A DNA stretch of 56,364 nucleotides, from positions 1-56,364 of the forward strand of contig CALUYU010000005.1 in the NCBI GenBank assembly GCA_944325075.1, written 5' to 3'. The notes below the pieces were generated by a model. The model did not search any database. It had not been told where the DNA came from and saw only the letters and a list, made by a program, of their open reading frames with translations. Both the position numbers and the translations under genes were made by a program. The stretch is from Candidatus Gastranaerophilales bacterium. GTDB taxonomy: Bacteria; Cyanobacteriota; Vampirovibrionia; Gastranaerophilales; Gastranaerophilaceae. Below are positions 1 to 56,341 of the stretch, in pieces. Each line of letters starts with the position of its first letter. Position 1 is the first letter of the stretch.

Positions 1-107
1 ATTTGGAGAAAAATTTGAAGAAAGGTATTTTTGACAAAAACCCTTGTCTCCCTTGAGGTTCGTTACCCCCCCCCCCCCGTATCACCTACTATTATTGACT
101 TTTCCAT
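1..107 (-). CDS. 5' end of a prepilin-type gene, running off the left edge (partial)
   Basis: Only the first codons are in the window. ATG at 107-105 follows Shine-Dalgarno AGGAGG (120-115). The encoded start is MEKSIIVGDT, then four glycines from the G tract, then TAA at 65-63 because the tract has 13 G. With 12 or 15 G the frame continues as GNEPQGRQGFLSKIPFF, the same leader that precedes FTLAEV pilins at the four complete loci near 31, 34.8, 43 and 56.3 kb. The pilin body lies outside the window, so the call rests on cassette identity. Confidence 0.6.
66..78 (-). repeat. G13 homopolymer inside the start of a prepilin reading frame (cassette A)
   Basis: Thirteen consecutive G on the minus strand begin at the third base of codon 10 of the frame opened by ATG 107. 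With 13 G the frame ends at TAA immediately after the tract; with 12 or 15 it stays open. Confidence 0.8.
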
Positions 108-15796: not shown

Positions 15797-16400
15797 TTAT
15801 TTACATTTATGTTTTCCGGTAAAAGATAAGCCGCTGCAACGTAAATATTCCATATTTCCGACCTCCAGTATCCAACCCCCATACAAGCCGCACCGTTTTC
15901 AAAATTCCCGCCGTATCAGGGGTTCCGTCATTCATCAATGCCAAGTTATATGCATTTAGAAGAACCGAATAGGACTTCTTAACTTTTGTCACAGTAACTT
16001 TTTCCTGATACTTTGCAATAAGAGTCGGCAAAGTCATTGCTGCAACAACTCCGATTATGCCAAGAGTGATTACAACCTCAGCCAGGGTAAACGCGGGGAC
16101 TAAGGCCCCTCCTACATGACGCGTCGCTGTTCAAGACGCAGAAGAAATAGCCTTTTGTAGGTTGGGGTTTCTACCCCAACAATATTCAAATGTTGGGCTG
16201 AAAGCACAACCTACTTTGGTTTTTGTATTATTTCTAGTGCAAATGGCCGAATATTTTTGTCGGTGACTAGATCCTGAAATACTCTGCGAGCACCCTCCCT
16301 TGTAAGCCTCCTTTTCGTCGGCAACAAGAGGAGCTGCAAGTTCTGGATGACATAAAAAATTATTTATAGACCGTTTCCCAATGCGTCCAACACAGTTCAA
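15797..16400 (-). pseudogene. Decayed prepilin-type gene
   Basis: The minus strand encodes a repeat-derived leader (MNCVGRIGKRSINNF... QKAISSAS), then an in-frame TGA (about 16133-16131), then in the same frame TATRHVGGALVPAFTLAEV and the helix ITLGIIGVVAAMTLPTLIAKY. After about 50 more residues the frame breaks. The conserved C-terminus can still be read in another frame, ending near GKHKCK with TAA at 15799-15797. About 140 residues of pilin body are missing compared with the 33.7 kb homologue. The locus has no G-tract cassette upstream. Stop codon, deletion and frameshift together point to a dead gene. Confidence 0.85.
16237..16352 (-). repeat. Composite palindromic repeat with 57-bp insert (pseudogene copy)
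   Basis: Contains ATCCTGAAA...CAAGTT(C)TGGAT arms flanking a 57-bp segment (16280-16336). On the minus strand it reads in frame as CHPELAAPLVADEKEAY and onward. The same element occurs at 31130, 34557, 42704 and 56006. Confidence 0.8.
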
Positions 16401-22334: not shown

Positions 22335-22560
22335 ATGCTAAAACTCAATCATAGAGCCGATTCCCACGATAGGGGGGGGGGCTAGACCAGGCCTAAAACC
22401 ATTGTCCCATGGCCATTACGGCAAATTATTTGTGTCGGGACAACGGTATAGACACGTTTTTAAGCATTTTGAAGTAATAAATAGTATGGATCAGGATGAC
22501 CACAAAAACAAAACAGCTTTGTGGTTTGCCATACATAAACCTACAATAAATATAATATGA
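22335..22560 (+). CDS. Putative phase-variable leader ORF with G10 tract
   Basis: ATG 22335 with a good SD encodes MLKLNHRADSHDR, then a G10 tract (22372-22381), then TAG within two codons. With 9 or 12 G the frame stays open to TGA at 22558-22560, about 75 residues, containing ARPGLKPLSHGHYGKLF and ending HKPTINII. The assembled length is therefore OFF. The DNA after the tract resembles the leader at 23610 (GATAG10C, then AGAC, then CTAAA-CC). A TTGTCCC/GGGACAA inverted repeat suggests RNA structure as well, so a non-coding leader role is a live alternative. Confidence 0.45.
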
Positions 22561-23609: not shown

Positions 23610-23874
23610 ATGAAGATGAAAATAGCCCAAAACCCAATTATAACAAGATTTTCCCTGATAGGGGGGGGGGCAGACTAAAGGTCTAAACCCTTATGGGATA
23701 AGGGTTTTGCATGTTTGTATCAGACGTATTATTGCGGATAATATACTTGAACTAAAGATTGAAGGAGATTTTCAAAATTCAATCTTGGATTTGAGGGATA
23801 TTTTTAGGCGAAATTCTTCTGTTTCGCCGTTTTGTGCTGCAAATTTTTCAATAATAAAAGGAGGTATTTTATGA
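23610..23874 (+). CDS. Putative phase-variable leader ORF with G10 tract, overlapping the next pilin
   Basis: ATG 23610 encodes MKMKIAQNPIITRFSLI, then G10 (23661-23670), and as assembled stops at TAA within three codons. With 9 or 12 G the frame continues for roughly 65 more codons (QTKGLNPYGIRVLHV...) and ends at TGA 23872-23874, overlapping the prepilin ATG as ATGA. That overlap is the normal geometry of translational coupling and argues the frame is real. Three hairpins lie in the same stretch: AAACCCTTAT/ATAAGGGTTT, AAGATTGAA/TTCAATCTT and GGCGAAA/TTTCGCC, so it may also act as a structured leader RNA. Confidence 0.5.
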
Positions 23875-30384: not shown

Positions 30385-31377
30385 TTAATAATTTATGAAG
30401 TCATTCCAGTAATCTTTAGTATTATCATCCGGATTTACATCAATACTTGCCCAATATGCGCACCCCATACCATTAATACTAGTTGTTATTTCCTTTGAGC
30501 AATCCGTAAAATCCTTGCTGCCATTTGCAGAATCATTTGCATTATTTGGGTTTCCAAGCGGAATTATCCTGCCGTCTTTTGTTGGTCGAAACGAAAACAT
30601 ATCAATACCAAGCTGGTTAGGCTTTTCATGATAGCCATTTATATCTACAGTAATAACCAAACAAGTATTGTATTCTGAGGCACCATATTCTGTGTAAAAA
30701 GTTTTTCTTAAAAAGTTCCACATATTTCCATCATCAAATTTATAAATATCAGCCTTCCCACCAGTTAAAGTTTTTACATCATTATTATATCGATTGTTGA
30801 GTGATTCTCCTTTCCCTTTATAATAGCTTACTACTTTTTCAGTTGTAGCTACTGCTGCCATCATCTGCGGCTCCCCATTGTCAACAAGAATCCAATCGTA
30901 TTCACAAATATTAGACCCAGTATCTTTAATAAAACTTAGATTAATTTGCTGAAGCTCATTATAAGTTTTTTTAAATTCTGCTTTTAAAACCTCTCTTCTA
31001 TACTTTGCAATAAGTGTTGGCAAAGTCATAGCTGCAACAACTCCGATTATGCCAAGTGTTATTAGGACTTCCGCCAATGTAAAGGCAGTAGATGTAGGTT
31101 GGGCTTTCAGCCCAACATTAAATTTTTGAGTGCAAATGTCCGCACATTTTTGCCGGTGGCTAGATCCTGAAATACTCTGCGAGCACCCTCCCTTGTAAGC
31201 CTTCTTTTCGTCGGCAACTAGAGGAGATGCAAGTTCTGGATGACAGCTGTTTGATTTTTGAGTTTCATTATTTTTGTTGGGGTAGAAACCACAACCTACT
31301 TTATTTTTAAAATTATTTTTATCTGATACAGAAAACTTTGAGTTGGAGAAAATTTTGAAGAAAGGTGTTTTTGACAA
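30385..31377 (-). CDS. Prepilin-type protein B with phase-switch leader
   Basis: As drawn it begins at an in-frame TTG (31377) without a convincing SD. The probable start is ATG 31447 of the switch cassette, joined in frame only if the G13 tract is 12 or 15 long. That gives a 121-residue leader before FTLAEVLITLGIIGVV. The leader contains VGCGFYPNKN and NVGLKAQPT (hairpin repeats) and the palindromic repeat segment SCHPELASPLVADEKKAY. The pilin body ends CAYWASIDVNPDDNTKDYWNDFINY, the same C-terminal type as the 55.1 kb prepilin. Probable pilus or pseudopilus subunit after cleavage before Phe; such long leaders are far outside the usual 5-30 residues. Confidence 0.75.
   Translation of the reverse strand: MSKTPFFKIFSNSKFSVSDKNNFKNKVGCGFYPNKNNETQKSNSCHPELASPLVADEKKAYKGGCSQSISGSSHRQKCADICTQKFNVGLKAQPTSTAFTLAEVLITLGIIGVVAAMTLPTLIAKYRREVLKAEFKKTYNELQQINLSFIKDTGSNICEYDWILVDNGEPQMMAAVATTEKVVSYYKGKGESLNNRYNNDVKTLTGGKADIYKFDDGNMWNFLRKTFYTEYGASEYNTCLVITVDINGYHEKPNQLGIDMFSFRPTKDGRIIPLGNPNNANDSANGSKDFTDCSKEITTSINGMGCAYWASIDVNPDDNTKDYWNDFINY
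31130..31244 (-). repeat. Composite palindromic repeat with 57-bp insert (locus B)
   Basis: The 57-bp insert spans 31173-31229 between ATCCTGAAA and CAAGTTCTGGAT. It is translated in frame within the leader of prepilin B. Confidence 0.8.
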
Positions 31378-31405
31378 AAACCCTTGTCTCCCTTGAGGTT
31401 CGTTA

Positions 31406-31418
31406 CCCCCCCCCCCCC
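31406..31418 (-). repeat. G13 tract in the switch cassette of prepilin B
   Basis: The frame from ATG 31447 reads MGKSSIAGHT plus four Gly and then TAA (31405-31403). One G fewer joins it to the pilin frame. Confidence 0.85.
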
Positions 31419-31454
31419 GTATGCCCTGCTATACTTGACTTTCCCATGTGTTTA

Positions 31455-31499: not shown

Positions 31500-32040
31500 C
31501 TTAGGTTTGAAATAGTCACACGACACATAGTGCTTTCTTTTTGCTTCCTTTTTCTTTGTGCTAAAGAAAAAGGAAGTTTTCAAGTCCCATTCTAAAATTT
31601 AAGTTCTACGACTAATATCGCTTTCTTTTTGTGCCTGAGGCACTGCACTACAATGCTCCGCCGGCGGGATAATATTGGAATCAAAGTAGGTTTGGCTTTC
31701 GGTCCAACATTAGATTTTTGTGTACAGATGGGCGATCATTTTTGACGGTGGATAGATCCTGAAACAAGTTCAGGATGACAGTTGGTTAATTCTTGAAATT
31801 CATTATTTTTTTTTGTTGGGGTAGAAACCCCAACCTACTTTGAACTGGATGTTTCCTGACACCTCACGGGGGCACTTTGTTCACCATTCCGAAAATCCGC
31901 TTTTGGCTAAAGTGCCTGAGGTACGACATTATTACGCTCCGCTGTCCGGAGCGCAAGGGGAATAACAAGAGAAAACAACTTCCACAACTAGTAACATAAT
32001 AAGCGAGAAACATATTTTTATGATAGGATACTGATAAAGG
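31500..32040. repeat. Gene-free repeat zone upstream of radA
   Basis: Holds a 14-bp-stem hairpin (31544-31576), the hairpin-repeat pair around 31690-31710 and 31811-31835, the uninterrupted palindrome at 31720-31780, and degenerate stretches with GCTCCG inverted repeats (about 31653 and 31935-31951). I see no gene. Confidence 0.6.
31720..31780. repeat. Uninterrupted copy of the palindromic repeat
   Basis: ATCCTGAA-ACAAG-TTCAGGAT (8-bp arms, 5-nt loop) in the same flanks as the composite copies but without the 57-bp insert. It reveals the empty form of the element. Confidence 0.8.
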
Positions 32041-32210: not shown

Positions 32211-33590
32211 ATGGCTAAAGTTAAGTCAAAATGGATATGTCAGCAATGCGGTTACGAAACAGCAGGTTATCTTGGAAAGTGTCCTGAATGCGGGAGTTGG
32301 GGTTCACTTGTTGAAGAAGTTCAGTTTGATCAAAAAATGCCAAATGCTGCTGCTAATGAATTTATTAACACGGAAAAACCGGTTCTGCTAAAGGATATTC
32401 ATATAGGAGAAGAAGTTCGCATAAGTACAAATATCTCTGAATTTGACAGAATACTTGGCGGAGGATTTGTGCAGGGCTCATTAATCCTTCTTGCAGGCGA
32501 TCCGGGGATTGGGAAGTCAACAATTACCCTTCAAACCTGCGGACAACTTTGCCGTGCCGGGAAAAAGGTTCTTTATGTCTCGGCAGAAGAAAGTGCAAGC
32601 CAGCTTAAATTAAGAGCAGAACGATTAGGGATAAATTCAGAAAATTTGTACATTTATCCGCAAACCAATATGGAAAATATAAAAAAACAGATAGAAGAGA
32701 TTTCTCCTGATTTCGTAATCATTGATAGTATTCAGGCAATCTACTCAAATAATGTCGCAAGTTCTGCAGGCAGCGTTTCTCAAATCAGGGAATGCACAAA
32801 TATTTTAATGCACATTGCAAAAAGCAAAAACATAACAACAATAGTAATCGGCCATGTTACAAAAGACGGGAATATTGCCGGGCCTAAGGTTCTGGAACAC
32901 ATGGTTGACACAGTAATTTATTTTGAAGGCGACAAGTACAAAACCTACAGAATGCTCCGCTCTATGAAAAACCGGTTTGGAAATACTTCTGAAGTAGGAA
33001 TTTTCGACATGCAGACAGACGGACTTCATGAAATTACAAACCCTAATGAATTATTCTTGAATGAGCGTTCTCAGGTTGCAGCCCCGGGAAGCGCAATAAT
33101 TGTAACCAATGAAGGAACCAGACCCTTAATGGTTGAAATTCAGGCATTAGTAGGAACAACATCCTACCCAAGTCCAAGAAGAGTTACAAATGGTGTTGAT
33201 ATAAGCAGACTTCATCAAATTCTGGCCGTTCTTGAAAAGCGTGTGGGGCTTAATTTTTCTAAACAAGATGTTTATATTAACGTAATGGGCGGAATTGACG
33301 TCAATGAACCAAGTGCAGACTTAGGAATTGCGCTTGCAATTGCAACTTGCGCAAGGGATGTTGTTGTTGACCCGCAAACAGTTATCATAGGAGAAATAGG
33401 ACTGTCCGGAGAGGTTCATCCGGTAAATAATATTGAAAAAAGATTAAATGAGGCGGCCGCCTCAGGTTTTAAAAAGGCGATAATACCTTTTGCCAACAAA
33501 ATCCCGGCCGATTTTAACAAAATAAACATTGTAAAAGTCAAAAGGCTTTCAGATGCAATAGTTGCCTGCATAACCTCACTTGAAAGTTAG
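32211..33590 (+). CDS. radA: DNA repair protein RadA
   Basis: 459 residues. N-terminal zinc finger (Cys10, Cys13, Cys24, Cys27), RecA-like ATPase with Walker A GDPGIGKST (96-104), the RadA signature KNRFG in MKNRFGNTSEVGIF, and a C-terminal Lon-like domain (PSADLGIALAIAT). It promotes branch migration in recombinational repair. SD GAGGGG precedes ATG. A structured leader lies upstream and a strong terminator downstream, so it is a single-gene unit. Confidence 0.95.
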   Translation: MAKVKSKWICQQCGYETAGYLGKCPECGSWGSLVEEVQFDQKMPNAAANEFINTEKPVLLKDIHIGEEVRISTNISEFDRILGGGFVQGSLILLAGDPGIGKSTITLQTCGQLCRAGKKVLYVSAEESASQLKLRAERLGINSENLYIYPQTNMENIKKQIEEISPDFVIIDSIQAIYSNNVASSAGSVSQIRECTNILMHIAKSKNITTIVIGHVTKDGNIAGPKVLEHMVDTVIYFEGDKYKTYRMLRSMKNRFGNTSEVGIFDMQTDGLHEITNPNELFLNERSQVAAPGSAIIVTNEGTRPLMVEIQALVGTTSYPSPRRVTNGVDISRLHQILAVLEKRVGLNFSKQDVYINVMGGIDVNEPSADLGIALAIATCARDVVVDPQTVIIGEIGLSGEVHPVNNIEKRLNEAAASGFKKAIIPFANKIPADFNKINIVKVKRLSDAIVACITSLES

Positions 33591-33670: not shown

Positions 33671-34786
33671 TTATTTACATTTATGCTTACCGCTCCAACT
33701 TAGGTCATCGCAGTGAAGATAATCCATATTCTCATTAAAAATTACCCACGCCGTACAAGCTCGTCCGTTATATTGGTTAGTTGACTTTCTATTACAAGCC
33801 TGTTCAAAAGGAGTAGAAATGTTTGTTGGTAAAGACAATGAACCTGTAGGTACAAAGCCTTTGTCATAAAGTAATTTAAAGTAGAAGATATCAACTCCCA
33901 TTTTACAACCTCTTTTTATGCACTCAGGAAATATAATTACAAAATCAGTATTGTCAATATATCCATCACCATCACTATTTACGTATCCGACCGCTAATAT
34001 TGTATTATCATTGAGATATACATATTTTTCAGGAGGTTGTGTTTGCCCGGAAACATTTAACCGTCCATCAAGAAAATAACTATTATATTTTAACTCTGTC
34101 TTAGGTTTTTGGGAATTAAGACTTTCAGCGATATAGCCCAAAACTTTCTCAGCTCCTGAGTAATCAAGAATTTGATCGCCATTTTCATCATCTTCTCCGG
34201 TCTGTGTAACAGTAAGATCCCAGTATTGAGCCTCTCCATGCTTTTCAACAGCTCTTAGATATGCCTGCTGGAGTATTGAATAACTTTTTTTCAATTGGGT
34301 AACTCTTTGTTTTTCCTTATAATTTGCAACCAATGTAGGCAAGGTCATAGCAGCAACAACGCCGATTATGCCAAGAGTTATTAGAACCTCTGCCAGAGTA
34401 AACGCGACCTTGCGAGGCGAGTAGTAGTATGGTGAAAAGACCTCTGCCAGGGTAAACGCGGGGACTAAGTCCCCTCTTACATGACGCTGCACTTTCCGAG
34501 ATGCATAAGAAATAGCTTTTGTAGGTTGGGCTTTCAGCCCAACCTTAGATTTTTGAGTGCAAATGACCGAACATTTTTGTCGGTGGCTAGATCCTGAAAT
34601 ACTCTGCGAGCCCCCTCCCTTGTAAGCCTCCTTTTCGTCGGCAAAAAAAGGAGCTGCAAGTTCAGGATGACAGCCGTTTGATTTTTGAAATTCATTATTT
34701 TTGTTGGGGTGGAAACCCCAACCTACATTATTTGATACAGAAAACTTTGAGTTGGAGAAAATTTTGAAGAAAGGTGTTTTTGACAA
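33671..34786 (-). CDS. Prepilin-type protein C with duplicated FTLAEV site
   Basis: As drawn it starts at TTG 34786; the cassette ATG is 34856, in frame only with 12 or 15 G. The leader holds hairpin-repeat peptides (VGWGFHPNKN, KVGLKAQPT) and the palindromic segment GCHPELAAPFFADEKEAY. Uniquely, AFTLAEV occurs twice, 18 residues apart: LVPAFTLAEVFSPYYY, then PRKVAFTLAEVLITLG. Only the second continues into the pilin helix, so leaders of 133 or 151 residues are possible. The body ends CTAWVIFNENMDYLHC...LSWSGKHKCK, matching the 23.9 kb prepilin. Probable minor pilin. Confidence 0.75.
   Translation of the reverse strand: MSKTPFFKIFSNSKFSVSNNVGWGFHPNKNNEFQKSNGCHPELAAPFFADEKEAYKGGGSQSISGSSHRQKCSVICTQKSKVGLKAQPTKAISYASRKVQRHVRGDLVPAFTLAEVFSPYYYSPRKVAFTLAEVLITLGIIGVVAAMTLPTLVANYKEKQRVTQLKKSYSILQQAYLRAVEKHGEAQYWDLTVTQTGEDDENGDQILDYSGAEKVLGYIAESLNSQKPKTELKYNSYFLDGRLNVSGQTQPPEKYVYLNDNTILAVGYVNSDGDGYIDNTDFVIIFPECIKRGCKMGVDIFYFKLLYDKGFVPTGSLSLPTNISTPFEQACNRKSTNQYNGRACTAWVIFNENMDYLHCDDLSWSGKHKCK
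34557..34672 (-). repeat. Composite palindromic repeat with 57-bp insert (locus C)
   Basis: Insert at 34600-34656 between ATCCTGAAA and CAAGTTCAGGAT; read in frame in the leader of prepilin C. Confidence 0.8.
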
Positions 34787-34814
34787 AAACCCTTGTCTCC
34801 CTTGAGATTCGTTA

Positions 34815-34827
34815 CCCCCCCCCCCCC
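34815..34827 (-). repeat. G13 tract in the switch cassette of prepilin C
   Basis: ATG 34856 reads MGKSSIARHT plus Gly4 then TAA (34814-34812). One G fewer restores the pilin frame. Confidence 0.85.
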
Positions 34828-34863
34828 GTATGCCGTGCTATACTTGACTTTCCCATGTGTTTA

Positions 34864-35132: not shown

Positions 35133-37349
35133 TCACTCTTGAGGCGCTTCTTCTTCAGCCGCCTGCTCAAGAACTGACGCAAATATCATTTTAACCAGTT
35201 CTACTAGTTTATTTTGATCATATCTGGTTGTAGCCAGTACTTGACCGGCGACCCTAACTCCCGAGCCCAAATACTCTACATCAGGATCAGGATCAGCCCC
35301 GATTCTGCCGGGATCTTTATCAATTTTAATTGATATTATGTCGCCATCATCGTTTAATTCAATAACGACTCTACGTCCCTCAGGCAGCAATACCGCAGTA
35401 TGAGTCTTTCCATCCTCAGATGTGACTATAATTGGTTTAGGATCTGCATAAGCAAAATCGGCTAAAGTTTTGTTAGCAGCATCAAGGATTGGTTTTGCAT
35501 CTTTCTTAAACTTATCTAAAAATACTTTTTCATCTTCGACTTCTTGTATATTCTTTTCTAATTTTTCTCTTGTTTCTTCATTTGCCTCCCGGATAGAGCC
35601 TGCAGCCTGCTCTATCCATGCAGGCAAATCTGTATTTTCTGATACCGGAGCGTATTCTATACCGAGTTCATCCATTTTTGCTATTAAAGGCTTAACGATG
35701 TATTCTTTGACATGACTAAGGTCTAAGCCCCATTCTTCATCAACATCCTTGGCTAAGCTTGGATAAAATCTAATGACATAGGCAACATTATCAGGATTAA
35801 TTTGCTTCAACAATGCAATTGTATCACTATTCCAGGTTGGCCCAGAAATTGTGTTTTTTAATTGGTTCCCTAGATGGAATCCTTGGCTTTCATAGCCATC
35901 TATAGCCGTGACGCGAGCTTGTAATTCTTTATCTATTTTCTTTTGTGGAGTCAAATCCGGTTCTAAATCGGCAACAGCCGTATTTATTTTTTCTGTACGC
36001 TGTTCCGGAGTCAAACCATCACCGACCACATTTTCCGGGTTCTCTACTCCTTCCGGGTTCTCTACTCCTTCCGGGTTCTCTACTCCTTCCGGGTTCTCTA
36101 CTCCCTCTGGATTCTCTACTTCTTCTGGGTTCTCCACTCCTTCTGGGTTCTCCACTCCTTCTGGATTTTCAACCCCTTCTGAATCTGCAACCTCTGATTT
36201 CTTTGGAACTGTTATTTCCGCACCTTTTACCGGCTCTTTACCAGGGTTCATTTTCATTAATTCATTCATACGTTCTGCTATTTGAGCATTAGAAGGTTTT
36301 TCAATTCCTTCCGATTTAAGCTGTTCTTTTGCTAAATTCCACCAGCTGGTGCTTTTTTCCATTGTTTTAGTCTCGGTCTTGCCTTCATATTTTGATATAT
36401 CAGCATTTTCAACCGCATTTTTGTTATATTTTTCAATTTCTCCGTTCCTATCAACGTTAAGGCCTTCTTTATTAACTTTATCTTCAAGCTCTTCAGGGAT
36501 AATAACTTCCCCTCCAACAATAAAGTAACCCTTCTTAGCTGCATTACTATTAGCTTTTACAAATGCATCATATTCAGGAGTTCCCGGTTCAAAACCTAAT
36601 CTTCTGGCAGTAGCCCTGAATGATTCGCCATTTTTTGCATAAGAAATCATCTGGCCTTGAGCATTTCTTTGAGGCTCAAATTCAGCATCATTGGCTTCTT
36701 CTTCCTGGTGTGTAACCGGCTCAGTGCCTTGTTCTGCAACTTCAGCTGTTTCAGTCGGATTTGTGGATAATCCGCCAGGATTGAACGTTGTCTTCGTTTC
36801 AGACGGAGTAGTAGAATCACCCTCATAGGTATATTCAACAACTTCTTTCCCGCCAGAGCCACGGTCTGTAGTTTTCTTAATAACACGTCCTTGGGAATCA
36901 TATACAGTAGTAACAGCACCTCTAATCTCAGTTGAAGTTCCGTCCTCATTATATTTAATAGTTCTCTCAACGCCATCCTGAATTAATTTTGTTTCTGTTC
37001 TTCTTTTGGTTTCCATATCATAAGTATCAACCTGAACATTTCCTTCAGAATCTTTGTATGTTACAATTGCTTTTGACTTATCTTCTCCGAGTAAAATAAC
37101 AGTATCAGGAATATCTTCAGGAGAAAATCCCATTTCGTTTACAAAATTATCAAAATCTTCACCGGTTAATTCCACACTCTTATTATGTTTTTCAGCCTCA
37201 TTTGCCTGAAGAGTTCCGTCCTTATTCTCATCAAATTTCTCTAAAAGTGCCTTTTGAATTTCATCCTGCAAATCAGACTTCTTTACTCCCGGCTGAAGAG
37301 GCTTAAAATAATTCCCTTCAAGTCTTCTCCCGTTTACACCATCAACCAT
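35133..37349 (-). CDS. Large modular protein with EF-hand, LysM-like modules and a VENPE repeat
   Basis: 738 acidic residues, no signal peptide visible. In order: an EF-hand loop DENKDGTLQANE (about 39-50); a strand-rich stretch with YD-type phrases (TVYDSQGRVIKKT); an acidic linker; a LysM-like module (NGESFRATARRLGF...VGGEVIIP, about 240-285); a second one (SWWNLAKEQL...VKGAEITVP, about 335-385); nine VENPE units (about 392-445); and a helical C-terminal half with IQEVEDEKVFLDKFK and a last beta-rich region. The LysM-like modules suggest peptidoglycan contact, but without an export signal location is unclear. I do not recognise the whole protein. Confidence 0.7.
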   Translation of the reverse strand: MVDGVNGRRLEGNYFKPLQPGVKKSDLQDEIQKALLEKFDENKDGTLQANEAEKHNKSVELTGEDFDNFVNEMGFSPEDIPDTVILLGEDKSKAIVTYKDSEGNVQVDTYDMETKRRTETKLIQDGVERTIKYNEDGTSTEIRGAVTTVYDSQGRVIKKTTDRGSGGKEVVEYTYEGDSTTPSETKTTFNPGGLSTNPTETAEVAEQGTEPVTHQEEEANDAEFEPQRNAQGQMISYAKNGESFRATARRLGFEPGTPEYDAFVKANSNAAKKGYFIVGGEVIIPEELEDKVNKEGLNVDRNGEIEKYNKNAVENADISKYEGKTETKTMEKSTSWWNLAKEQLKSEGIEKPSNAQIAERMNELMKMNPGKEPVKGAEITVPKKSEVADSEGVENPEGVENPEGVENPEEVENPEGVENPEGVENPEGVENPEGVENPENVVGDGLTPEQRTEKINTAVADLEPDLTPQKKIDKELQARVTAIDGYESQGFHLGNQLKNTISGPTWNSDTIALLKQINPDNVAYVIRFYPSLAKDVDEEWGLDLSHVKEYIVKPLIAKMDELGIEYAPVSENTDLPAWIEQAAGSIREANEETREKLEKNIQEVEDEKVFLDKFKKDAKPILDAANKTLADFAYADPKPIIVTSEDGKTHTAVLLPEGRRVVIELNDDGDIISIKIDKDPGRIGADPDPDVEYLGSGVRVAGQVLATTRYDQNKLVELVKMIFASVLEQAAEEEAPQE
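36033..36176 (-). repeat. 18-bp tandem repeat inside the 738-residue protein gene
   Basis: Eight full units plus a partial one; the four at 36033-36104 are identical (TTCCGGGTTCTCTACTCC on plus), the rest diverged. It encodes (G/E)VENPE repeats; whole-unit gain or loss keeps frame. Confidence 0.9.
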
Positions 37350-41883: not shown

Positions 41884-42903
41884 CTAAAATTTGAACGGAT
41901 AATTGTCCGGAATATTCCAGCCGTTCAACTGGATAAGTGCAGTACAATATGCTCTTTCATCTGAAACAGTCTCTTTGCAACCAAGTTCACTATCATTCAA
42001 AAGACTGGATTTATTCCCATCCCACTTATATTTGTATGGCTCAACTCCTTTCTTGTAATGAAATTTATTCGCTGCAACCGTTTTAGAAGGATTAAATAAA
42101 AAAGTAAAATATCTTATTCCGGAATCAGCAGGATCAACATCAACATATCCGTCAGTGTCAAGACTCTCTGTTATTTTATAGTATTTTGCTTCAGGATAAA
42201 ATATCCAGCTTGACTCACCGATAATTACAAGACTTCCATCAGGGAAAAATATGTTGACTTTTCCCTGACTGGTATTAATATCAACATTGGTATCAAGGGT
42301 TACAATGTAAGGTTTTATATATCTGTTAAACCAGCTAATCATTTTTGACTCTTGGGTTTTATCAACAGTTCCATCTTCTCCTATATCATAAGCCTTTGGC
42401 TGTGCATCCCAATATTCTTTGGGGCCATTATCCCTTTCAGACATCAAAATAACCTGATTCATTGTACTATAAAATTTTTTAAGTCTTGATTCAACAACCG
42501 ATTTTCTGTAATGTCCGGTCAAAACCGGCAGAGTCATTGCGGCAACTACTCCGATTATGCCAAGGGTTATAAGGACTTCCGCCAAAGTAAATGCAACTCG
42601 ACGAGGCGAGTAGTGCCTGAGGCCCTGTATTACAATGCTCCGCCGGCGGGGTAATACAGAAATCAATGTAGGTTGGGCTTTCAGCCCAACATTAAATTTT
42701 TGAGTGCAAATGGCCGAACATTTTTGCCGGTGGCTAGATCCTGAATTACTCTGCGAGCACCCTCCCTTGTAAGCCTCCTTTTCGTCGGCAACGAGAGGAG
42801 CTGCAAGTTCAGCATGACATGGGGAACTATTTATCGACTTTTTCCCGATGAGGTCATCGCTGTTTTTATGTATGTTTGGGTTTCTACCCCAACATACTTT
42901 CAT
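41884..42903 (-). CDS. Prepilin-type protein D with phase-switch leader
   Basis: As drawn it begins at an in-frame ATG (42903) lying within a hairpin repeat and lacking a clear SD. The cassette ATG is 43075; with 12 or 15 G it opens a stop-free leader of 161 residues up to FTLAEVLITLGIIGVV. The leader includes VGWAFSPTMK, PCHAELAAPLVADEKEAY, NVGLKAQPT and YSPRRVA. The globular domain ends CTALIQLNGWNIPDNYPFKF, the same C-terminal type as the 22.7 kb prepilin. The leader start differs from B and C (REGKTPKLVFFKFF instead of RQGFLSKTPFF), showing local divergence with the frame kept. Confidence 0.75.
   Translation of the reverse strand: MKVCWGRNPNIHKNSDDLIGKKSINSSPCHAELAAPLVADEKEAYKGGCSQSNSGSSHRQKCSAICTQKFNVGLKAQPTLISVLPRRRSIVIQGLRHYSPRRVAFTLAEVLITLGIIGVVAAMTLPVLTGHYRKSVVESRLKKFYSTMNQVILMSERDNGPKEYWDAQPKAYDIGEDGTVDKTQESKMISWFNRYIKPYIVTLDTNVDINTSQGKVNIFFPDGSLVIIGESSWIFYPEAKYYKITESLDTDGYVDVDPADSGIRYFTFLFNPSKTVAANKFHYKKGVEPYKYKWDGNKSSLLNDSELGCKETVSDERAYCTALIQLNGWNIPDNYPFKF
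42704..42819 (-). repeat. Composite palindromic repeat with 57-bp insert (locus D)
   Basis: Insert at 42747-42803; the outer arm reads CAAGTTCAGCAT here, so the palindrome is slightly degraded. It is in frame in the leader of prepilin D. Confidence 0.78.
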
Positions 42904-43033
42904 TGTTGGGCTGAAAGCCCAACCTACATTGCTTTTAAAATTATTTTTATCCGATACAGAAAACTTTAATTTGGAGAAAAATTTGAAGAAAACTAATTTC
43001 GGTGTTTTCCCTTCTCTCCCTTGAGGTTCGTTA

Positions 43034-43046
43034 CCCCCCCCCCCCC
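43034..43046 (-). repeat. G13 tract in the switch cassette of prepilin D
   Basis: ATG 43075 reads MGKSIIASNT plus Gly4 then TAA (43033-43031). One G fewer restores the pilin frame. Confidence 0.85.
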
Positions 43047-43082
43047 GTATTACTTGCTATTATTGACTTTCCCATGTGATTA

Positions 43083-50393: not shown

Positions 50394-51950
50394 TTATACT
50401 TTCGAACGAATTTTTCTTGGCTGTTTCTTTGTTTTTATTTGCTCTTCCAACCTTTTTTGGGCATAACCATAAATTGCGTAAATCATAAAACCTATTAATA
50501 ACCACAAAGGGAAATAGGTTGAAGATGTCCGCAAAGATTTCATTGAATAAACCATTAATCCGCCGCAGGTAACTATTCCTAAAATAGGAAATATTGGACA
50601 AAACGGAACTTTAAAAGGTCTTTCCCTGTTTGGATCTGTTTTTCTTAAAATTAAAACAGCTATACAGATAATTATAAATGAAGTAAATGTTCCAAAGTTA
50701 CATAATTCAGCAGAAATATTTAAATCCATAAATAAAGAACAGACAATAACAACAATTCCAGATATCCATGTTAAAACATGAGGAGTTCTGTATTTTTTAT
50801 GGATTAATCTCAAAGACTTAGGTAAAAATCTATCCCTGCTCATTGCATACAAAATTCTTGTAGTACCAAGCTGGTATATTAAAAGAACAGATGTTAAAGC
50901 GCATAAAGCTCCAATAGAAATTAAGCCCGCAAACCAATCCATTCCGATAACCCTCATAGCATGCGCAATCGGTGCCTGAATATCAATTTGGTTTAAAGGA
51001 ACAGTCCCGGTTAACACAAGAGCAACACAAACATACAACACCGTGCACAATACAAGCGTACCGAGAATTGCTATAGGCAAATCTCTTTGAGGATTTTCCG
51101 TTTCTTCTGCAGTAGTTGATATCGCATCAAATCCTATGTATGCAAAGAAAATTAAAAACGCCCCCATAAATATTCCCTCAAATCCATTTGGAGCAAAAGG
51201 CGTCCAATTTTCAGGCTTTACATAAAAAGCGCCAACACATATAAATGAAAGTATCATAAACATATTAACGCCAACCATAACACTAGCAACTCTTGTAGAT
51301 TCTTTCACGCCCTTAATAAGAAGCATTGTAAGTACAAGAACAATCAAAATTGCAGGTAAATTAACAGCAAACGGGATATGCCCGAATATAAAAGGCATTT
51401 TATCATGTACATCAAAACCGTATTTGTCACAATATGAATACATATATCTGTAGTCATTTCTCAACCACATAGGAAAATTCACAACAAATGACGGAAGTAT
51501 ATGCTTAAACCCTTTCAGGAACTGGGTTAAATATCCGGTCCAAGCGCTTGCGACAGTAATATTACCGATAGCATACTCAAGCATCAATATCCACCCGACC
51601 ATCCAGGCCATAAATTCACCCATAGTTGCATAAGTATAAGTATAAGCACTTCCAGCAACCGGTATCATTGCAGCTATTTCCGAATAACAGAGTGCAGAAA
51701 AAACACAAGCTACTGCCGCTAATACCATTGAAATTATTACTGCCGGGCCGGCTCCAACACCTTCCGGACCGCCTTGAATTGCAGTCCCTATGATTGTGAA
51801 AATCCCGGTACCAACAACTGCCCCTATACCGATTACGATAAGGTCAAACACATTTAACGTCTTTTTTAATTCTGTTTTTTTGCTGGTTGCAATAAGTTCA
51901 TCGGGGCTTTTTTTGGTTAAAGCATTTTTTATTACAGCTTTTATGTCCAT
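50394..51950 (-). CDS. APC family amino acid permease (second of a tandem pair)
   Basis: 518 residues, about 12-14 transmembrane helices. The start of the transport domain, GIGAVVGTGIFTIIGTAIQGG, carries the glycine-rich substrate-site motif of APC transporters in the cationic/YfnA-like branch. FFAYIGFDAISTTAEETENPQRDLP is another hallmark. Its ATG overlaps the stop of the upstream permease (TAATG), so the two are co-translated. Substrate unknown. Confidence 0.9.
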   Translation of the reverse strand: MDIKAVIKNALTKKSPDELIATSKKTELKKTLNVFDLIVIGIGAVVGTGIFTIIGTAIQGGPEGVGAGPAVIISMVLAAVACVFSALCYSEIAAMIPVAGSAYTYTYATMGEFMAWMVGWILMLEYAIGNITVASAWTGYLTQFLKGFKHILPSFVVNFPMWLRNDYRYMYSYCDKYGFDVHDKMPFIFGHIPFAVNLPAILIVLVLTMLLIKGVKESTRVASVMVGVNMFMILSFICVGAFYVKPENWTPFAPNGFEGIFMGAFLIFFAYIGFDAISTTAEETENPQRDLPIAILGTLVLCTVLYVCVALVLTGTVPLNQIDIQAPIAHAMRVIGMDWFAGLISIGALCALTSVLLIYQLGTTRILYAMSRDRFLPKSLRLIHKKYRTPHVLTWISGIVVIVCSLFMDLNISAELCNFGTFTSFIIICIAVLILRKTDPNRERPFKVPFCPIFPILGIVTCGGLMVYSMKSLRTSSTYFPLWLLIGFMIYAIYGYAQKRLEEQIKTKKQPRKIRSKV

Positions 51951-53548
51951 TATTTTAATAATTCCTGTTTTTTCTGTTCAACTTTTTCAAAGTGAACTTC
52001 GTTTTCATACTTTCTATTACTTCTAAAACCGTAATTAAAATAAATAATCCCACCTATTCCAAGCCAAACCGGAAATAACAATGCAGAGGTAGTCAGTGAC
52101 CTGAAAGAATAAATCATCAAACCGCCGCAGCATAATATGCCCATTGCCGGAAACCACGGAGAAAACGGAACTTTAAACGGTCTTTCTCTGTTTGGATCAG
52201 TATGCCGCAAAATTAATACCGCAACACAAACCACAATAAAAGATGTAAATGTTCCGAAATTACAAAGTTCTGTTGCAACATTTAAATCCAAAGTCATAAC
52301 ACCGACTATTGAAACAATTCCAACAAGCCAGGTTAAAATATGAGGAGTTTTATATTTAGGATGAAGAGCCTGCAGTCCTTTCGGAATAAAATTATCACGG
52401 CTCATTGCATACAAAATTCTAACAGCAGCAAGCTGCATTACAAGAAGGACAGAAGTCAGACCTGCCAAAGAGCCAACGGAAATTAATCCGGCAACCCAAT
52501 CCTGATGAGCGACTTCAGACATAACAAACGCCATAGGAGCTTTTAAAAATGCAGCAGGCACAGCACCGGATGTCGGATACATACCTGTCATAACCAACGC
52601 AACAAGAACATAAACAACAGTTGCGGCTATTAATGATCCGATAATACCTATAGGTAAATCTCTTTGAGGATTTTTACACTCCTCAGCAACAGTTGCAATT
52701 GCATCAAATCCTATGTATGCAAAGAATATCAAAAATGCCCCCATACAAATTCCTTCCATCCCGTTTGGAGCAAAAGGAACCCAGTTAGCAGGTTTAACAT
52801 AAAACATACCCACTAATACAAATAAAGCAATTACCGCAAGTTTAATAAAAACCATTACTCCGGCCATTTTCGCCGAATCCTTAGTACCTTTTATCAAAAC
52901 CCAGGTAGATAATATTATTATAGCAGCTGCCGGCAAATTGATACAAAATGGCACACCACATATTGTCGGAATAACTCCATGAGGATCAATTCCTGAAGCA
53001 GCCAAAGTTTTCGTTGCTGATCCAATATCACTTACAAGCCAGATAGGCGGATTAGCAATAAAATCAGGCAATACATTTGAGAACCCTCTTAAAAACTGCA
53101 TCAAGTGATTTGACCAGGAAGAGGCTACAACAATAAAACCAATTGCATACTCAAGCATTAACACCCACCCAACCATCCAGGCGGCGAACTCACCCAAAGT
53201 TGCAAATGTATAAGTATAAGCACCTCCGGCCACTGGAATCATCGCCGCAAATTCGCAATAACACAATGCTGAAAATACGCACGCAAATGCAGCAATAATC
53301 ATTGATATAGACAACGCCGGACCTGCTCCGACACTTTCCGGTCCGCCAGCAGCGGCAATACCTACAACAGCAAAAATTCCGGCACCAATAATTGCACCAA
53401 TTCCGAGAATTATTAAGTCCCAGATGCCAAGAGTTTTTTCTAAACCTTCTGTTTTAGCATCTTCAAGCATAGCATCAGGATTTTTTACCTGAGTAATTCT
53501 ACGCAAAAAATTTTTACTGAATGTAGGGTGATGAAATTTTTTAGCCAT
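51950..53548 (-). CDS. APC family amino acid permease (first of a tandem pair)
   Basis: 532 residues, clearly paralogous to its neighbour across its whole length: GIGAIIGAGIFAVVGIAAAGG, MVGWVLMLEYAIG and FFAYIGFDAIATVAEECKNPQRDLP all align. About 12-14 helices. It starts 12 bases after the glyQ stop, so it may belong to the same transcript. Two adjacent transporters of the same class suggest a local duplication with different substrate ranges. Confidence 0.9.
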   Translation of the reverse strand: MAKKFHHPTFSKNFLRRITQVKNPDAMLEDAKTEGLEKTLGIWDLIILGIGAIIGAGIFAVVGIAAAGGPESVGAGPALSISMIIAAFACVFSALCYCEFAAMIPVAGGAYTYTFATLGEFAAWMVGWVLMLEYAIGFIVVASSWSNHLMQFLRGFSNVLPDFIANPPIWLVSDIGSATKTLAASGIDPHGVIPTICGVPFCINLPAAAIIILSTWVLIKGTKDSAKMAGVMVFIKLAVIALFVLVGMFYVKPANWVPFAPNGMEGICMGAFLIFFAYIGFDAIATVAEECKNPQRDLPIGIIGSLIAATVVYVLVALVMTGMYPTSGAVPAAFLKAPMAFVMSEVAHQDWVAGLISVGSLAGLTSVLLVMQLAAVRILYAMSRDNFIPKGLQALHPKYKTPHILTWLVGIVSIVGVMTLDLNVATELCNFGTFTSFIVVCVAVLILRHTDPNRERPFKVPFSPWFPAMGILCCGGLMIYSFRSLTTSALLFPVWLGIGGIIYFNYGFRSNRKYENEVHFEKVEQKKQELLK

Positions 53549-54604: not shown

Positions 54605-55120
54605 ATGGCTGATAAGATTATTATTTTCTCGGGAAAACAGTATTCCGGGAAAGATACAGCGGCAAAAATAATGTTGGAAAAAATGCCGTATTTCAGAAGA
54701 TGTGCTATAGGAGATATTATAAAATTAACTTATGGAAAAGAAAAAAACTTAACATATGACGAGATAGAGAAAAATAAGCCCTTATACAGACAGGATCTTA
54801 TAAACCTTGGAAATTGGGGACGAGCACAGGATCCTGATTACTGGTTAAAAAAAATTATTGAACAGAACGGAAATATTATTGTCACAGATGTTCGGGTTGA
54901 ACATGAATATGACGTTTTTAAAAATGCAGGGGCTATAGCAATCAGAGTTGAGGCGTCAAGAGAAACAAGAATGCAACGAGGACAACTGATTGGGGAAGAC
55001 GATGTCACTGAAACCGGACTTGACCACGTTAAGAGCTGGGATTATATAATAGATAACAATTCAGATTATGAAAACCTAACCTGGCAGGTTAATGATATTA
55101 TTGAGAAACTAAAGTTTTAA
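54605..55120 (+). CDS. P-loop nucleotide-kinase-like protein
   Basis: 171 residues. Walker A FSGKQYSGKDTAAK with the GKD variant seen in deoxynucleoside-monophosphate kinases and animal-type phosphomevalonate kinases; VTDVRVEHEYDVFKNAGAIAIRVEA resembles the Walker B strand and following helix of that group; SRETRMQRGQ may be the lid. The substrate is not determinable here. AAGGAG lies seven bases before ATG. Its 3' end overlaps the convergent prepilin E by 12 bases. Confidence 0.75.
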   Translation: MADKIIIFSGKQYSGKDTAAKIMLEKMPYFRRCAIGDIIKLTYGKEKNLTYDEIEKNKPLYRQDLINLGNWGRAQDPDYWLKKIIEQNGNIIVTDVRVEHEYDVFKNAGAIAIRVEASRETRMQRGQLIGEDDVTETGLDHVKSWDYIIDNNSDYENLTWQVNDIIEKLKF

Positions 55121-56185
55121 ACTTTGCCAATATTTTTTAGTACTATCGTCGGGATTTTTATCAACAAGTGCGAACTTATAACAAGCTCTTGAACTAAATC
55201 TTCCATGCAAATTTTTAGAACAATTTTGCTCCCAAGTACCGGTATTATAATAAAAAATATCATAGCCGTATCTATTCGGCCCTTTGAATGGCCCGTTTGT
55301 ATCAAAAGTAAAGCCAATGCCATCGGTTGCCCCATGGTACAAAAATGTAATACCGGATATTGCGCTGCCATCTTGCAAAATAAATAAACCATACGATGAC
55401 TCAGTATCATAAACATCGATACCATATAAACCGTTATAGGTAAGGCAAACATCTCCGGCGTAGTCTAATACATCAATCTTTTTTAACAAATTACGATCAA
55501 CAGATTTCGCAATATTCAGATGAGATAAAAAAGAGTTCATAATTTGGGGGATATAAAAAGATTTTGTAGAATCACGACAATTTAAATAAGATTGTGTCCG
55601 CGGATCATCCATATTTAAATTTCCCTGATCATCAGCATAAGCAGGATAGCCGCATAATTCTGTTAAGTCTTTAATACTGGTTAATCCCATATCATTAGCA
55701 GTAAGCATAAGTGCATTATCTATAGTACTCACACTTTTCTTAAAACCACTTTCCAAAACCTTAACTCTGTAATTAGAAATCAAAGCCGGTAAAGTCATAG
55801 CAGCAACAATACCGATTATGCCAAGAGTTATTAAAACTTCAGCCAGAGTAAACGCGGGGACTAAGTCACCTTTTACATGACGCGTCGCTTTCCGAGATAC
55901 ATAAGAAATAGCTTTTTGTAGGTTGGGGTTTCTACCCCAACAATATTTTAATGTTGGGCTGAAAGCCCAACCTACTTTATCTAATACTTCTTTCCCTGAT
56001 ACGGTACAGATGGTCACACATTTTTGACGATGGCAAGATCCTGAAATACTCTGCGAGCACCCTCCCTTGTAAGCCTCCTTTTCGTCGGCAACAAGAGGAG
56101 CTGCAAGTTCAGGATGACATGAAAAATTATTTATAGACCGTTTCTCTATACGGCCAACACAGCTCAATGTATGTTGGGGTTTCAC
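55109..56185 (-). CDS. Prepilin-type protein E with phase-switch leader
   Basis: As drawn it starts at GTG 56185 inside a hairpin repeat. The cassette ATG is 56333; with 12 or 15 G it opens a stop-free 160-residue leader to FTLAEVLITLGIIGIV. The leader contains VGVKPQHT, CHPELAAPLVADEKEAY, VGWAFSPTLKYCWGRNPN and ATRHVKGDLVPA. The body carries CGYPAY and CLTYNG cysteines and ends CYKFALVDKNPDDSTKKYWQSLKL, the same C-terminal type as prepilin B. Probable minor pilin or pseudopilin. Confidence 0.77.
   Translation of the reverse strand: MKPQHTLSCVGRIEKRSINNFSCHPELAAPLVADEKEAYKGGCSQSISGSCHRQKCVTICTVSGKEVLDKVGWAFSPTLKYCWGRNPNLQKAISYVSRKATRHVKGDLVPAFTLAEVLITLGIIGIVAAMTLPALISNYRVKVLESGFKKSVSTIDNALMLTANDMGLTSIKDLTELCGYPAYADDQGNLNMDDPRTQSYLNCRDSTKSFYIPQIMNSFLSHLNIAKSVDRNLLKKIDVLDYAGDVCLTYNGLYGIDVYDTESSYGLFILQDGSAISGITFLYHGATDGIGFTFDTNGPFKGPNRYGYDIFYYNTGTWEQNCSKNLHGRFSSRACYKFALVDKNPDDSTKKYWQSLKL
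56006..56119 (-). repeat. Composite palindromic repeat with 57-bp insert (locus E)
   Basis: Insert at 56047-56103 between ATCCTGAAA and CAAGTTCAGGAT; in frame in the leader of prepilin E. Confidence 0.8.
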
Positions 56186-56291
56186 CCCAACATAATATTT
56201 ATTTTCGTTAGATACAGAAAACTTTGATTTGGTGAAAAATTTGAAGAAAGGTATTTTTGATAAAAACCCTTGTCTCCCTTGAGGTTTGTTA

Positions 56292-56304
56292 CCCCCCCCC
56301 CCCC
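56292..56304 (-). repeat. G13 tract in the switch cassette of prepilin E
   Basis: ATG 56333 reads MEKSIIVRHT plus Gly4 then TAA (56291-56289). One G fewer restores the pilin frame. Confidence 0.85.
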
Positions 56305-56341
56305 GTATGCCGCACTATGATTGACTTTTCCATGTGTTTAC

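Follow-up and report, generated by a model that had tools for sequence, protein, structure and literature searches.

Prepilin-like genes and palindromic modules in the window

The window analyzed here is a 56,364-nucleotide stretch, namely contig 5 of a 2.26-Mb draft genome (107 contigs) of an uncultured Gastranaerophilales bacterium. Its nearest named relatives in GTDB are MAGs of Candidatus Gastranaerophilales. Four genes on its (-) strand combine a mosaic leader with a prepilin-like body. The first (30385..31405; body AFTLAEVLITLGIIGVVAAMTLP...) is open from its G tract in one frame only, and the second (33671..34814) is likewise open from the G tract. The body of the third (41884..43033) matches DUF6613 (4e-22), and the fourth (55109..56291) has the same leader/body anatomy. 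The leaders (for example, CHPELAAPLVADEKEAYKGG...) are 60–200 residues long, which is far longer than usual for prepilins. The N-terminal methylation motif of these proteins is obvious by eye, and the prepilin profiles score 16–18 bits on the bodies for PF07963 (cut-off 21.2) and 16.2 bits for TIGR02532 (cut-off 16.3). A prepilin peptidase is encoded in the genome (PF01478 at C20:11276-11671, above the cut-off). The (-) strand of the window also carries an 18-bp tandem repeat (TTCCGGGTTCTCTACTCC) at 36015-36194 in the ORF 35133-37349, which gives six-residue protein repeats, and two adjoining paralogous genes at 50394-53548, the DNA of which is 72–77% alike in blocks.

A palindrome occurs in the window in two lengths. 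The first-pass annotation described a short copy and five others with 57 bp inserted in the loop, and in all five the segment between the shared arms indeed measures exactly 57 bp. Four of these modules lie in the prepilin leaders on the (-) strand: 31164..31241 (57-bp part 31173-31229, reading CHPELASPLVADEKKAYKGGCSQSISGS), 34591..34668 (34600-34656), 42738..42815 (42747-42803; left arm ATGCTGAA, with an imperfect match between the arms), and 56038..56115 (56047-56103). The fifth (16271..16348, (-); 57-bp part 16280-16336) belongs to a decayed gene with a broken body, in which a stop closes the leader frame ahead of FTLAEV. The additional segment lies between CTTG and TTTC, and right-arm matches in the window are far above chance (10 vs. 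1.3 expected).

The short palindrome, ATCCTGAAACAAGTTCAGGAT, is present at 31756..31776 (-), about 36 bp from position 31720 where it had been placed. Rather than in an intact leader, it lies upstream of the gene at 30385-31405, in a fragment that resembles a leader but has no pilin. Its own frame is shut after 13 codons with no pilin downstream, so the comparison of empty and filled forms within the window sets a non-coding copy against coding ones. The insert is indeed a multiple of three and free of stops in the leader frame, but the short copy named for comparison is itself outside a prepilin leader. Short copies inside leaders (n = 23) are found elsewhere in the genome. As a whole, the original observation is confirmed and was right in substance.

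Genome-wide, 62 filled cores and 64 short forms were found, and reversed-pattern controls gave none of either. Across 55 intact filled copies, no indels were seen in the insert, and a length of 57 bp was measured directly for 48 of them; the loci were taken from stretches totaling approximately 545 kb of the 2.26 Mb. Among 50 assessable filled copies, 46 are open and in frame to FTLAEV, and all 46 use one frame. Codon variants of the module comprise 11 synonymous and 24 non-synonymous changes, compared with 58 and 171 possible. This codon-level constraint is weak, and codon-level selection on the module was set aside as evidence.

Poly-G tracts and the reading frame of the leaders

Leaders with filled copies mostly begin with a Shine-Dalgarno sequence, an ATG, about nine codons, and a G tract of 8–15 nt. 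In the A type, the order on the module strand is TATAAT ... AAAAGGAGG ... ATGGGAAAGTCAAGTATAGCANGGNATAC, 8–15 G, and TAACGAACCTCAAGG. Tract lengths among paralogs span n = 8–15, apart from a tract of 20 G at the poor end of a contig, as read from a draft assembly in which homopolymer lengths may err. In the window, the tract of the first gene (31406..31418, (-), n = 13) begins 29 nt after the start of an ATG at 31445-31447, which is preceded by the Shine-Dalgarno sequence AAAAGGAGG and TATAAT, and it leads into GGG-TAA, the OFF register. The tracts of the other three genes, all (-) with n = 13 and in the OFF register, are at 34815..34827 (ATG ~34854-34856), 43034..43046 (ATG ~43073-43075), and 56292..56304 (ATG ~56331-56333). 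Another 13-G tract at 66..78 (-; ATG ~105-107) precedes a gene that runs past the contig end.

The frame downstream depends on tract length. At the usual distance of 29 nt between ATG and tract, the frame GGT-AAC-GAA-CCT with 12 G is open for 57–164 codons (45 in one locus) into FTLAEVLITLGIIG. Thirteen G, the commonest length, bring an immediate stop (GGG-TAA), and 11 or 14 G end the frame within about 35 codons. In cells, the outcome would be set by slippage of the tract, with read-through to the prepilin (ON) at 12 G, immediate termination at 13 G, and early termination at 11 or 14 G. All four scorable loci in the window are at 13 G and OFF; in the assembly, the scorable A-type loci are 24 OFF and 6 ON. 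For starts with the pilin motif in reach, the pilin frame is open in 36 of 39 A-type and 9 of 10 B-type cases, although these loci are not independent given that the leaders are paralogous. The other frames are closed by 35 codons, and a first-order Markov null predicts that only 0.6 of 47 leaders would be open. As in contingency genes, the length of a homopolymer in the coding region sets the frame, one register opening it while the others stop, and tract length varies among paralogs and between orthologs. Between near-identical orthologs, lengths of 10 vs. 11 (with 100% identical bodies) and 12 vs. 10 were observed.

Two other types of start were recognized. Of 10 loci with the B type, ATGCTAAAACTCAATCATAG...(G)n-CTAGACTA, 9 read through into prepilins. 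The C type, ATGCAAAACTCAATCATAG...(G)n-CAGACTAAGG, mostly has a 67-codon small ORF followed by a pilin leader with its own Shine-Dalgarno sequence and ATG. No read-through from the G tract was seen at the C-type loci, and the small ORF and the pilin are possibly linked by translational coupling. The window copies of the B and C types, at 22372-22381 (+) and 23661-23670 (+), are both decayed.

The pattern SD-ATG-(14–40 nt)-G9 was searched in 286 genomes of the order and in a phylum-wide sample. It is present in 75 of the 286 genomes and 15 of 50 genera, compared with eight matches in five genomes for the reversed pattern. Outside the family, it was found in two of approximately 170 genomes (G419 and G420; loci L309 and L310), which belong to one genus and have one site each. 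Based on this distribution, the pattern is essentially confined to Gastranaerophilaceae. Loci from other genera were inspected as well, and in about two-thirds of them the frame beyond the tract meets a prepilin motif within a few to 141 codons. One such short leader reads MFINAKTR-(G)n-KSEYKAFTLAEVLITL.

These short leaders bear on whether the long leaders are translated at all. The repeats may instead be 5'-untranslated RNA elements, acting as attenuators or stabilizers, with translation starting from near FTLAEV. Hairpins that fold better than shuffles and a second SD-ATG downstream at some loci (C type) are in line with this possibility, which nonetheless appears improbable in view of the single open frame across 47 leaders, the in-phase ATG-polyG with its Shine-Dalgarno sequence, and the short leaders of other genera that read straight through. 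Given the latter examples, translation through the G tract is likely, and the long leaders of this species are seen to be an elaboration.

In other genera, poly-G starts are also found before frames that by eye resemble acyltransferases or sugar epimerases (L194, L196, L207, and L217), suggesting that the switched gene set may extend beyond prepilins.

The hairpin unit and the short and filled forms

According to the first-pass annotation, the 57 bp look like one repeat inserted in another and then amplified with the prepilin leaders. The presence or absence of an in-frame 57-bp segment and its amplification with the leaders both stand. The part that does not stand is the separate inserted repeat. 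Free-standing copies of the core were sought in this genome, in the 286 genomes of the order, on GTDB contigs by exact matching, and on viral contigs, and none were found. All 62 copies in this genome are within arms, the GTDB scan gave 18 loci (each from Ca. Gastranaerophilales), and the sole viral match (L236) is an unrelated chance match. Target duplications are likewise not visible at the CTTG and TTTC junctions of the genome's own copies or at the flanks of the 84-bp copies in relatives. Neither mark of a nested mobile element, that is, occurrence of the segment without its host repeat or a target duplication with defined ends, was thus observed.

In other genera, the complete 84-bp hairpin unit occurs in unrelated flanks that are mostly non-coding. 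It is nearly always outside pilin frames, with the exception of one copy that is reversed inside a pilin frame (L228). In these genera, it is the whole 84-bp hairpin that moves from one unrelated setting to another. This unit is predicted to fold as one long hairpin, better than shuffles, and its arms show compensatory changes when genera are compared: C-G has become G-C in three sequences, and U-A has become C-G in one. Pairing is retained in the arm variants ATCC/GGAT, ATGC/GCAT, and ACCC/GGGT, and the inner stem is likewise compensated. Covariation involves five pairs and eight cells with double changes, and its score was reached in none of 500 shuffles, which ignore relatedness. Most genera have an inner part of 57 bp, and one has 55 bp. 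Because the 57-bp length is kept in genera where the unit is mostly non-coding, its divisibility by three predates coding and is a feature of the hairpin itself rather than an adaptation to coding.

In another genus (G078), 13-G tracts are followed by a filled hairpin within about 60 bp at L180 and L186, and the hairpin at L186 is about 500 bp ahead of a pilin motif.

Two candidate explanations for the hairpin were rejected. The single Y1 (IS200/RAYT-type) transposase gene of this genome (PF01797, G000:C73:327-683) is not flanked by hairpins, neither form being found within 2.2 kb around it, and a RAYT/Y1 transposase was ruled out as the mobilizer. For known RNA families, the only match was a sub-threshold one to the Hatchet ribozyme at 33211-33333 (+), which scores 29.7 bits (gathering threshold 51), lies inside another gene with RecA/Lon domains, and is probably due to chance.

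The two forms differ in distribution. The short form is found in 129 of the 286 genomes and 34 of the 50 genera, many of which have no filled copy. Filled copies are so far known from this order alone, in 15 of the 286 genomes searched, and within its own genus only from this species and the sister G287. Both of these have short and filled forms. Two congeners (G055 and G103) have the short form only, read in frame as CHPELVSGS within homologous prepilin leaders that also have poly-G tracts, so the filled form is the derived state in the leaders of this genus. The short form is old and widespread, and in the genus it predates the filled form. Such a spread excludes the short form as the deletion product of one lineage, which the first-pass annotation had named among the things that would refute its reading. 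A broader version, with precise deletion of the inner part of the hairpin in several lineages and paralogs, would fit the occurrence of both states among ortholog pairs. Hairpin deletion is easy in bacteria. This version is nevertheless very unlikely, because the sequence lacks flanking microhomology, many of the genera with the short form have no filled copy, and the present distribution already suggests the short form at the root.

The greater age of the short form in the genus is also compatible with a nested insertion, in which a distinct 57-bp mobile repeat entered the short palindrome in frame before being amplified with the leaders, as is the finding that certain leaders with similar flanks on both sides differ in length by 57 bp. 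However, the core is never free-standing, no target duplication was seen, the hairpin moves in other genera with its own covarying arms, and the insert length is unchanged where it is mostly non-coding; we consider this scenario unlikely. Left flanks, short or filled forms, and right flanks occur in every combination, and homology between short and filled leaders can start exactly at the right arm. Rather than one clean insertion event, these patterns favor the arrival of the long hairpin, which would then have spread through recombination at the arms that both forms share.

Probable exchange of leader cassettes and comparison with known systems

Alignment of 300-nt leaders in the genome gave 697 gene pairs, and in 269 of these the bodies have no detectable similarity. 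In one pair, the leaders are 99.3% identical and the bodies are unrelated. Conversely, a locus of the sister (L299 of G287) and C36:5211 of this genome have 98% identical bodies and differ in everything upstream, with the junction in the FTLAEV region. Leaders and pilin bodies are thus exchanged independently of each other.

The explanation that we consider quite likely is a domesticated hairpin repeat within poly-G phase-variable and cassette-shuffled prepilin leaders, with the switching itself inferred. The short and filled forms would be two length classes of one dispersed hairpin repeat with the arms ATCCTGAA...TTCAGGAT, and the "57-bp insert" would be the inner part of the long class, forming a single long hairpin together with the arms. 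The hairpins would have become fixed in the long mosaic leaders of this species and its sister, where they are read in frame as a coding spacer (CHPELVSGS or CHPELAAPLVADEKEAYKGGCSQSISGS). Each leader cassette consists of a promoter, a Shine-Dalgarno sequence, an ATG, about nine codons, a G tract, repeat modules, and the FTLAEV helix. The sequences themselves show this anatomy, the single open frame, the distribution across the family, the covariation of the hairpin, and the uncoupling of leaders from bodies; slippage in cells, translation and cleavage of the long leaders, and the lack of a peptide-level role are inferred. The long leaders would be translated and then cleaved. Because a leader upstream of the peptidase site need only stay open, in-frame repeats would be tolerated while stops and frameshifts would not. 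The hairpins would then be passengers turned coding spacer in a cytoplasmic leader with a nearly free sequence and presumably no role at the peptide level. Homologous recombination would swap leader cassettes between genes, with the palindromes and the FTLAEV region as junctions. Such exchange would disperse the filled and short variants, and the repeated modules would in turn supply homology for it.

A broader proposal, which we put forward tentatively as having slightly less than an even chance, is that Gastranaerophilaceae have a large two-layer system of surface variation. Dozens of prepilin-like genes per genome would each lie behind a poly-G switch, promoter-start-leader cassettes would be swapped between bodies at the hairpins and FTLAEV, and the short and filled palindromes would be the recombination junctions of this system. 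Gut Melainabacteria are known mostly from metagenomes. If true, a family-specific set of prepilins switched by G tracts would give a cyanobacterial lineage that is not photosynthetic a repertoire for surface variation. It would also illustrate how selfish or neutral hairpin repeats can turn into coding sequence where only an open frame is demanded.

Several parts of this arrangement have counterparts elsewhere. Rickettsia palindromic elements (RPEs) are found in frame in protein genes (cited in PMC3733652). As in RPEs, the palindromes studied here are dispersed, read in frame in many ORFs without breaking the frame, and tolerated. They differ in being concentrated in the leaders of one switchable class of prepilin genes and shuffled as cassettes. 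The short class also resembles the CGTC-tagged REPs of PMC3733652 in forming short dispersed stem-loops after (C/T)GTC (e.g., CGTCATGCTGAACTCGTTTCAGCATC in relatives), whereas the cyanobacterial REPs treated there are GTAG types, unlike the repeats here. In the passages of PMC3733652 that were consulted, no counterpart of the long 84-bp class was found.

Poly-G contingency loci have been described in Campylobacter, Neisseria, and Helicobacter (PMC6321876, PMC5320596, and PMC2823697). There, as would be the case here, a homopolymer decides the frame or expression of genes for surface structures. The present loci differ in belonging to an unrelated phylum and in having reusable leader cassettes before dozens of prepilin-like genes per genome. 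One paper mentions pilD and genes of the type IV pilus (PMC5877343), and nothing else pertinent to phase variation, prepilins, or these repeats in Gastranaerophilales was found in the literature searched. The proteins are similar to type IV prepilins and pseudopilins in the (A)FTLAEVLITLGIIGVVAA helix and in the prepilin peptidase of the genome, but differ in their very long mosaic leaders, unclassified bodies (except for the one with DUF6613), and scores below the family cut-offs. In-frame palindromes, short tagged palindromes, and poly-G phase variation in other phyla are thus already known.
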